This document shows positions 48,101 to 49,655 of a stretch of DNA of 64,000 bases, piece by piece. The position numbers and the translations under genes are program-made. Where the stretch lies: the NCBI GenBank assembly GCA_012032555.1, contig JAAUSR010000013.1, forward strand, positions 1 through 64,000, in the 5' to 3' direction. Position 1 is the stretch's first letter; each line of letters opens with the position of its first letter. This DNA is from Thioploca sp. (GTDB taxonomy: Bacteria > Pseudomonadota > Gammaproteobacteria > Beggiatoales > Beggiatoaceae). The notes beneath the pieces are model-generated. The model saw only the letters and a list, made by a program, of their open reading frames with translations, was not told the origin of the DNA and did no database searches.

Positions 48101-48163
48101 GTTGACACTTTGCAGTCAACTCACCTCTAGAAACATCTCGGACGCACCCCCTGCACCCCCCCA
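48101..48163 (-). other. Possible IMH-like G-rich tract and hairpin behind the DUF1566 gene
   Basis: On the minus strand, after the stop codon of the DUF1566 gene, there is a G-rich tract (GGGGGGTGCAGGGGGTGCGTC, plus-strand 48143-48163 region) and then a hairpin made of GTTGAC and GTCAAC (48101-48106 with 48115-48120, eight-base loop). Diversity-generating retroelements need a GC-rich initiation site and often a hairpin just past the variable repeat. The position fits, but the sequence has no proven match. Confidence 0.35.
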
Positions 48164-48176
48164 ATTATCAAATGAC

Positions 48177-49655
48177 CTATTGTCCACCTCTAACCGGCCA
48201 CACATAGTAGGTGTACGCCCTATCGTAGCTGTTGACGCTGCCGCTGCTGAGGGCCACGACCCACGCGTTACTCGCATTACTCGCGTACGTCGTAGCCGAC
48301 CAATAGTTGTCCAACTGGACATTTAAAAACGGATGGCCAGACGGCAAGACCGGATTAGATTGACCCCGATCTATCAAACTGAATAATTCATTCGTATTAG
48401 GCAAACGCCAATCTCCCTTTTTTGAACCATCATTCAGGCTACAACTCCCACTTGACAAATTATTCGCTGACGCTATTGCTGTAGTCCAATCTTGTTGTCC
48501 AAAGCAATTCGCCTCCTTTAACCAAATTAAACCGGTTAGATTATCCGTCACCGTCCCATTTCCTGGGTCAGTAAAACGAGGACCAGATGTTGTCACACCT
48601 TTTCGAATATTTCCGTCATCTCCAGTCACATAAGAGGTCGTTTGCCCCGTTCTCGGTACTGGAGCCAATTGACGCGTTCCCGTCACTTCCACGCCATCTA
48701 CCCACGCTTTCTTACCCGTGATAATTTCACTCGCTACGGCATCACCACTACTGGTATTCACTAAATTTTGAAGCGAGAATTTTCCCGTTATCTCCTTTCC
48801 ATCTACCCACGCCTTTTGGCCTTCTAAAATATAACTCGAACTGGCATCGCCACTACTCGTATCGACCACATTCTTATTACCAGACACCCCAAAGATTGTT
48901 ATTCCAGCTTTGATATTATCTGATACTAAATTAGCATCTCCGGTCACTACCCCAGAACCATTGTAATAGCCCGCCACTAGCGGTTGATCGGTCGTCTTCG
49001 GGGTATAGTTTTTCTCACCTTGATTGGGCATCGTCCCCACTAAATCTACTCCTTGGCTAGTTGAGAAGGTTTTCCCAGCCAACACCTCTGACACCACCGC
49101 AGTTCCCGTCGCTTTCGGGGGACAAGCCACCAGCGGCGGGCATTCATAATTACCGATCACACCAAACAGTTCTATTCCTTTCAAGATATTATTCGCGGTT
49201 AAGTCTTCATCTCCTTGCACTTTGCCTTCGCCATTATGATAGCCTTCAGCTATCACTTGATCTTTGGTACTCGGCATATAGGTTGGTGCGCCTTGATCCG
49301 CCATCGTTCCGGTTTGCTTTCCCCACTGTTCGGCTCGCAGACCCCAGTAGGTCTTTCCAGATAAGACTTGATTCGATTGCGCTCCACTCATCTCATCTTT
49401 CTTCGGTGCTACCGCCATCACGTCATTTAATGTACATCGTCGACTATTCTCTTGCGGACCACTCTCCGGTCCCGAAAACGCTTTCAATTCGCCCTCTTCA
49501 CCACTTTTTAATCGCTGGCAGATATCTTCAACTCGATACATTGCACTTTTAATGTCGTCTGGCGGCGCCGGCGAATCGATTGGCCCCGCTAACAGAGGCT
49601 TAGCCAAGAACATCAGGGAAAGGATTAATTTCGGATAGTGATTAACCAACCACAT
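48177..49655 (-). CDS. Secreted DUF1566 (Lcl C-terminal) repeat protein, candidate DGR target
   Basis: The 492-residue protein starts with a signal peptide (LILSLMFLAKPLLAGP). The middle has two copies of a unit of about 65 residues (GTMADQGAPTYMPSTKDQ; GTMPNQGEKNYTPKTTDQ, each ending LFGVIGN/IFGVSGN) and two copies of a short unit (SGDAVASEIITGKKAWVDG). The last 130 residues are a DUF1566 domain, a C-type-lectin-like fold: FTDPGNGTVTDNLTGLIWLK, DWRLPNTNELFSLID, and LDNYWSATTYASNASNAW to the end VWPVRGGQ. It is probably a surface-exposed binding protein. The last 42 codons are far more GC-rich than the rest of the gene and are dominated by NNC codons, described as a separate feature. Confidence 0.88.
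   Translation of the reverse strand: MWLVNHYPKLILSLMFLAKPLLAGPIDSPAPPDDIKSAMYRVEDICQRLKSGEEGELKAFSGPESGPQENSRRCTLNDVMAVAPKKDEMSGAQSNQVLSGKTYWGLRAEQWGKQTGTMADQGAPTYMPSTKDQVIAEGYHNGEGKVQGDEDLTANNILKGIELFGVIGNYECPPLVACPPKATGTAVVSEVLAGKTFSTSQGVDLVGTMPNQGEKNYTPKTTDQPLVAGYYNGSGVVTGDANLVSDNIKAGITIFGVSGNKNVVDTSSGDASSSYILEGQKAWVDGKEITGKFSLQNLVNTSSGDAVASEIITGKKAWVDGVEVTGTRQLAPVPRTGQTTSYVTGDDGNIRKGVTTSGPRFTDPGNGTVTDNLTGLIWLKEANCFGQQDWTTAIASANNLSSGSCSLNDGSKKGDWRLPNTNELFSLIDRGQSNPVLPSGHPFLNVQLDNYWSATTYASNASNAWVVALSSGSVNSYDRAYTYYVWPVRGGQ
48180..48305 (-). other. Candidate diversity-generating variable region
   Basis: The coding strand from the YWS codons to the stop is about 57% GC by hand count, in a window that is clearly AT-rich. 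Between the constant ASNAW and PVRGGQ ends, the codons GTC, GCC, AGC, AGC, AGC, AAC, AGC, TAC, TAC, ACC and TAC all keep C in the third position and can each be derived from AAC by changing only adenines. This is the mark left by adenine-specific mutagenic retrohoming. DUF1566 domains are established DGR targets. The template repeat and reverse transcriptase are not in this window. Confidence 0.55.

Follow-up and report, generated by a model that had tools for sequence, protein, structure and literature searches.

The 3' end of a DUF1566 gene of Thioploca sp. is rich in GC and in NNC codons, which raises two questions: whether this stretch is the variable region (VR) of a DGR, and whether it is still being rewritten. 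The gene lies in a window of 64,000 nucleotides, the whole stretch of DNA that was analysed. The sequence evidence strongly supports the identification of the region as a DGR variable region that sits apart from its machinery. The VR is most likely an orphan left behind by a decayed DGR: a variant of a C-type-lectin surface protein that has become fixed.

The target gene and its 3' end

The features of the locus include:
48177..49655, minus strand: target gene of 492 aa, taken from the open reading frame
48189..48557, minus strand: Lcl_C domain, aa 367-489 (PF07603 match, coordinates converted by hand)
48177..48310, minus strand: DGR variable region; homology to the inferred template spans at least 48163-48306
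48147..48162, minus strand: G-rich tract after the stop codon; the plus strand reads CCCCCTGCACCCCCCC
48101..48120, no strand: small hairpin with 6-bp arms and an 8-nt loop
47866..48058, no strand: MITE-like inverted repeat just downstream of the target gene, with two 70-nt arms that are 86% complementary

The target protein has a hydrophobic, signal-peptide-like N-terminus (judged by eye) and a C-terminal Lcl_C/DUF1566 domain (PF07603, E 1.6e-27, aa 367-489 of 492), which is a C-type lectin domain. An AlphaFold2 model of the domain (mean pLDDT 79) matches the C-terminal domain of Legionella Lcl (8q4e) and then, weakly, C-type lectins; the sequence profile of the domain agrees with the Lcl match. 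The protein is predicted to bind a ligand at the surface. A search of IMG/VR with the protein as query gave no match. Among the Pfam domains of DGR targets, DUF1566 is reported to be the most frequent (PMC6642488), in line with the preliminary description of this DNA, which had named it a known target.

The GC richness that had been put at about 57% by hand count is borne out, as the last 126 bases of the gene are 58.7% GC, compared to 39% for the window and 46.9% for the remainder of the gene, and rank first among 3042 sampled 126-bp stretches of the window. The excess of NNC codons likewise holds (16/41 in the 3' end vs 61/451 elsewhere in the gene; Fisher p 1e-4).

The G-rich tract and the small hairpin described after the stop codon both exist, but the hairpin is not shared with sister DGRs. 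The tract corresponds to the 5' half of a post-VR hairpin of the sister DGRs L155 (Magnetococcales) and L153 (Verrucomicrobia); this hairpin, formed by the G-tract and a C-rich return arm, is present in L155 and in both L153 targets. After the window VR, the G-tract and first hairpin arm are kept, while the C-rich return arm is missing. The small hairpin at 48101..48120 is probably incidental, and the DNA fold of the post-stop stretch is unexceptional (z -1.25). The core of the MITE-like repeat, CGTTCCCACGC, recurs after the VR on contig C62 and upstream of a reverse transcriptase (RT) relic on contig C158.

Variation among the five copies

A DNA search of the Thioploca sp. genome (5.55 Mb, 198 contigs, 99.7% complete) located four more copies of the 3' end, on contigs C19, C62, C21 and C45 (77-82% identical), along with a 44-bp remnant on contig C92; a look for other genes sharing this end had been suggested. 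The VR genes on C19 and C62 are open over their full length, that on C45 matches over aa 231-492 only, and the C21 copy is broken up over several different frames. The constant 3' end of the VR is common to all five copies. A further relative, on contig C50, has an intact frame and a 3' end without the VR pattern.

The third codon positions of the VR are nearly frozen. Between the window gene and C62, 2 of 42 third positions differ in the VR compared to 43 of 108 upstream, while first and second positions of the VR account for 23 differences. When the five copies are compared in all ten pairings, which are not independent of one another, third positions contribute 49/254 of the differences in the VR and 461/1041 upstream. 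In the control comparison of the window gene with the ordinary paralogue on C50, 22 of 42 third positions differ over the same region.

With the genome's own template repeat (TR) missing, the concentration of changes at adenines was assessed by comparing the paralogues with one another and with TRs from other species. Independent templates were obtained by aligning the C158 RT relic with the RT of Candidatus Venteria ishoeyi HSG18 (G016) and pulling DGR RT loci from named genomes. TRs that are 78-84% identical to the inferred TR occur in L155 (Magnetococcales), L150 (Chloroflexi), L162 (Brocadiaceae), L151 (Anaerolineales) and L153 (Verrucomicrobia). Columns variable among the five Thioploca sp. 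copies fall on 30 of 41 adenine sites of the L155 TR vs 17 of 89 other sites (p 7e-9), and the concentration is significant with each of the six external TRs tested (p 1e-6 to 7e-9). Within the external loci, TR-VR differences are at A in 15/17 (L155), 14/14 (L158), 21/21 (L171) and 20/21 (L153) cases. Compared to the inferred TR, the window VR is changed at 15 of 44 A sites and 0 of 86 other sites, and the non-A changes number 3 in C62, 2 in C19, 5 in C21 and 6 in C45; as the inferred TR was built partly from the same five VRs, these counts may be too low.

The window gene has two hallmarks of a DGR target: (i) the VR is at its 3' end, in a C-type lectin domain, and (ii) differences concentrate at template adenines, with other positions conserved, including synonymous ones. 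The claim of a DGR VR at the 3' end of a DUF1566 gene is upheld by the A-site concentration, the frozen third codon positions and the sister VRs.

Remains of the machinery

A template repeat was not detected in the 5.55-Mb assembly by blastn or by pattern search with 3 mismatches, the smallest contigs sampled being about 3 kb. A 26-bp stretch at 8669-8694 of C92, 88% identical to the inferred TR, was considered and judged a chance match. The Avd accessory protein is present in many, not all, DGRs; the genome has no match to PF05635 or PF22296. No intact DGR RT catalytic core occurs in the contigs seen (at least about 3 kb), which hold only N- and C-terminal relics. None of the RVT_1 matches examined was recognised as a DGR RT: four frames, scanned against NCBIfam, best fit the group II intron RT model and others are interrupted fragments. 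Apart from the two relics, the RT matches of the genome look like group II intron or CRISPR-associated types. On contig C197 (L008), a 298-aa RT frame, with the group II intron RT model as its best NCBIfam match, is followed by other frames, one resembling the end of Cas1, and is possibly a CRISPR-associated RT.

The relics were found with a profile of eight DGR RTs (A2), which has its best PDB match in 8ub7 ('Reverse transcriptase', E 4e-57), presumably the Bordetella phage DGR RT. The C158 relic (profile positions 299-417, E 4.5e-27) is a C-terminus of about 100 residues close to the end of a 3.1-kb contig; between it and the upstream contig end lie the palindromic CGTTCCCACGC repeat and further repeats. 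The C19 relic (profile positions 17-59, E 8.5e-7) comprises about 33 residues of the N-terminus, INANHPLFRLENLYQAYRQCRRRSNTCNALAFE, lies about 1.1 kb downstream of the C19 VR gene and runs into a BrnT toxin frame. Just before this relic, 14 bases (GTTCAGTCGGACCA) equal the sequence immediately 5' of the C19 VR, whereas the longest comparable match in 396 control stretches is 9; this TR edge is without a TR body. C19 carries two BrnT-type toxin frames (PF04365; 7298-7862 and 7929-8372 of L075), one between the VR gene and the RT relic and one directly after the RT start, the second being in frame with the RT codons.

The order of VR gene, TR edge and RT start on C19 is that of L155 and G016; since it matches intact sister DGRs, C19 is interpreted as the place where the DGR probably once resided, its TR body since lost by deletion. 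One shared template would have rewritten at least five VRs by adenine-specific mutagenic retrohoming, probably from this locus on C19. Deletions, together with the insertion of repeats and toxin-antitoxin genes, may then have dismantled the home locus, taking out the template body, Avd and RT core and leaving two RT ends, those of C19 and C158, which may once have formed one gene. With nothing but fragments of the machine left in the available assembly, the variability of the VR is probably a relic of past activity and not a live process.

The preliminary description had proposed a remote target of a DGR elsewhere in the genome. This is only partly right: the VR does lie away from machinery, but in the assembly the DGR survives only as the C19 and C158 relics. 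The search for a template and RT, which had been put forward as the check, leaves the proposed origin standing (RT relics, TR edge and four sister VRs) and speaks, for this assembly, against present activity. The statement that the protein is 'diversified at will' is not sustained: the assembly has no template, RT catalytic core or Avd, and the RT is reduced to two broken ends. Continued diversification is unsupported in the contigs seen, which are of about 3 kb and more, so that the absence of TR and RT is strong but provisional.

The fossil reading presumes that the unassembled DNA holds no intact DGR copy. An alternative, possible but rather unlikely, is that the DGR is alive, with an intact TR and RT serving all five VRs in trans and the C19 and C158 pieces being degenerate extra copies. 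The active TR and RT would then be located in unassembled DNA, in contigs outside those searched or in part of the population. Recent activity would likewise account for the zero non-A changes of the window VR, although the template was derived in part from this VR, and an assembly whose smallest contigs seen are about 3 kb, and in which C158 ends near its RT relic, could lack a DGR core that is flanked by repeats. Trans action on remote targets, with intact variants coexisting beside degenerate loci, is moreover known from Thiohalocapsa PB-PSB1 (PMC10907252). Against a live DGR are the 99.7% completeness of an assembly that lacks TR, RT core and Avd, the broken state of the probable home locus, the 2-6 non-A changes of the other VRs, the C21 gene that matches in several frames, and the loss of the post-VR hairpin in the window.

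It is very improbable that no DGR was ever involved, and that these are ordinary Lcl_C lectin paralogues with surface residues diverged under selection and a 3' end made GC-rich by chance or gene conversion. In favour of this reading, some of the residue pattern AW.V.L..G.V comes with the Lcl_C family itself: the non-VR paralogue C50 has TSNAWSVSFRTGSS. Ordinary lectin divergence is nevertheless rejected by the codon-position test, in which third positions are nearly frozen while first and second positions vary in the VR, the opposite of what is seen upstream and in C50. It is also at odds with variation that tracks the adenines of external TRs, and with the RT relics and TR edge downstream of one VR gene. 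An orphaned target of a decayed DGR remains the favoured interpretation.

Relation to known DGRs and to the family

The DGRs with DUF1566/Lcl_C targets (PMC6642488; L155 of Magnetococcales, L150, L153 and L162) share with the window gene the target domain, a VR at the extreme 3' end, the type of the inferred TR, a related RT and a G-tract after the VR. These DGRs, by contrast, keep the TR and a complete RT frame next to the target, whereas the Thioploca sp. assembly lacks both the TR and the RT core and has its targets on several different contigs. Thiohalocapsa PB-PSB1 is similar in having several C-type-lectin targets per genome, MITE-like repeats, which there replace the RT or TR, and targets away from the machinery that are acted on in trans (PMC10907252). 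Each class of Thiohalocapsa PB-PSB1 keeps one complete locus, however, and its diversification is measured in reads, while the Thioploca sp. system is known from an assembly alone, in which no complete locus was found. The DGR fragments of DUSEL4 Nanoarchaeota (PMC4372165) are comparable as sites with a DGR history that lack an RT gene and are interpreted as fossils or remote targets, but are archaeal, with targets of no detected similarity to known proteins.

Within the same family, Candidatus Venteria ishoeyi HSG18 (L068, L161) has Lcl_C-like targets and a complete DGR, with an Avd-like gene, a TR, a 525-aa RT and two VR genes. Of the RTs in 43 family genomes, its RT comes closest to the C158 relic (49% identity), while its VR ends in VRLVRDGQ vs VWPVRGGQ in the window type. 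VR-like 3' ends of the window type occur in the relatives G002, G003, G018, G026, G027, G033 and G034. The RT search (E 1e-5) detected DGR-like RTs of a shorter type in G026, G027 and G033 and no DGR RT in G002, G003, G018 and G034; the single same-genus genome compared (G001) has neither VR nor DGR RT.

There are precedents for DUF1566 targets, for remote VRs and for degenerate DGR loci. It is tentatively suggested that VRs outlive their DGR across this family of large sulfur bacteria, and that, once the TR and RT are lost, several genomes may retain sets of lectin domains that were formerly hypermutated and are now fixed, as ordinary genes. The locus illustrates a route of DGR death in which the machinery gives way to deletions, repeats and toxin-antitoxin genes, while the targets retain traces that allow much of the lost template to be deduced. 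A textbook VR signature is, hence, no proof of present diversification. DGR histories missed by RT-first surveys can surface in VR-first searches; Roux et al. state that their own approach would not detect remote targets (PMC8144416).

The DGR-like RTs of about 300-350 aa in L113 (G033 C425), L120 (G027 C20) and L122 (G026 C9) carry IGNLTSQ and lie beside Avd-like genes. Such RTs of about 350 aa in other family genomes were considered as the machine for the window VRs and discarded, as their loci have no match to the inferred TR. G018 carries six VR-type Lcl_C 3' ends (L062, L065, L070 and L071), among which the A-site bias is not significant (p 0.1-0.3); these sequences are too diverged for a significant signal and represent either an older decay or another history.
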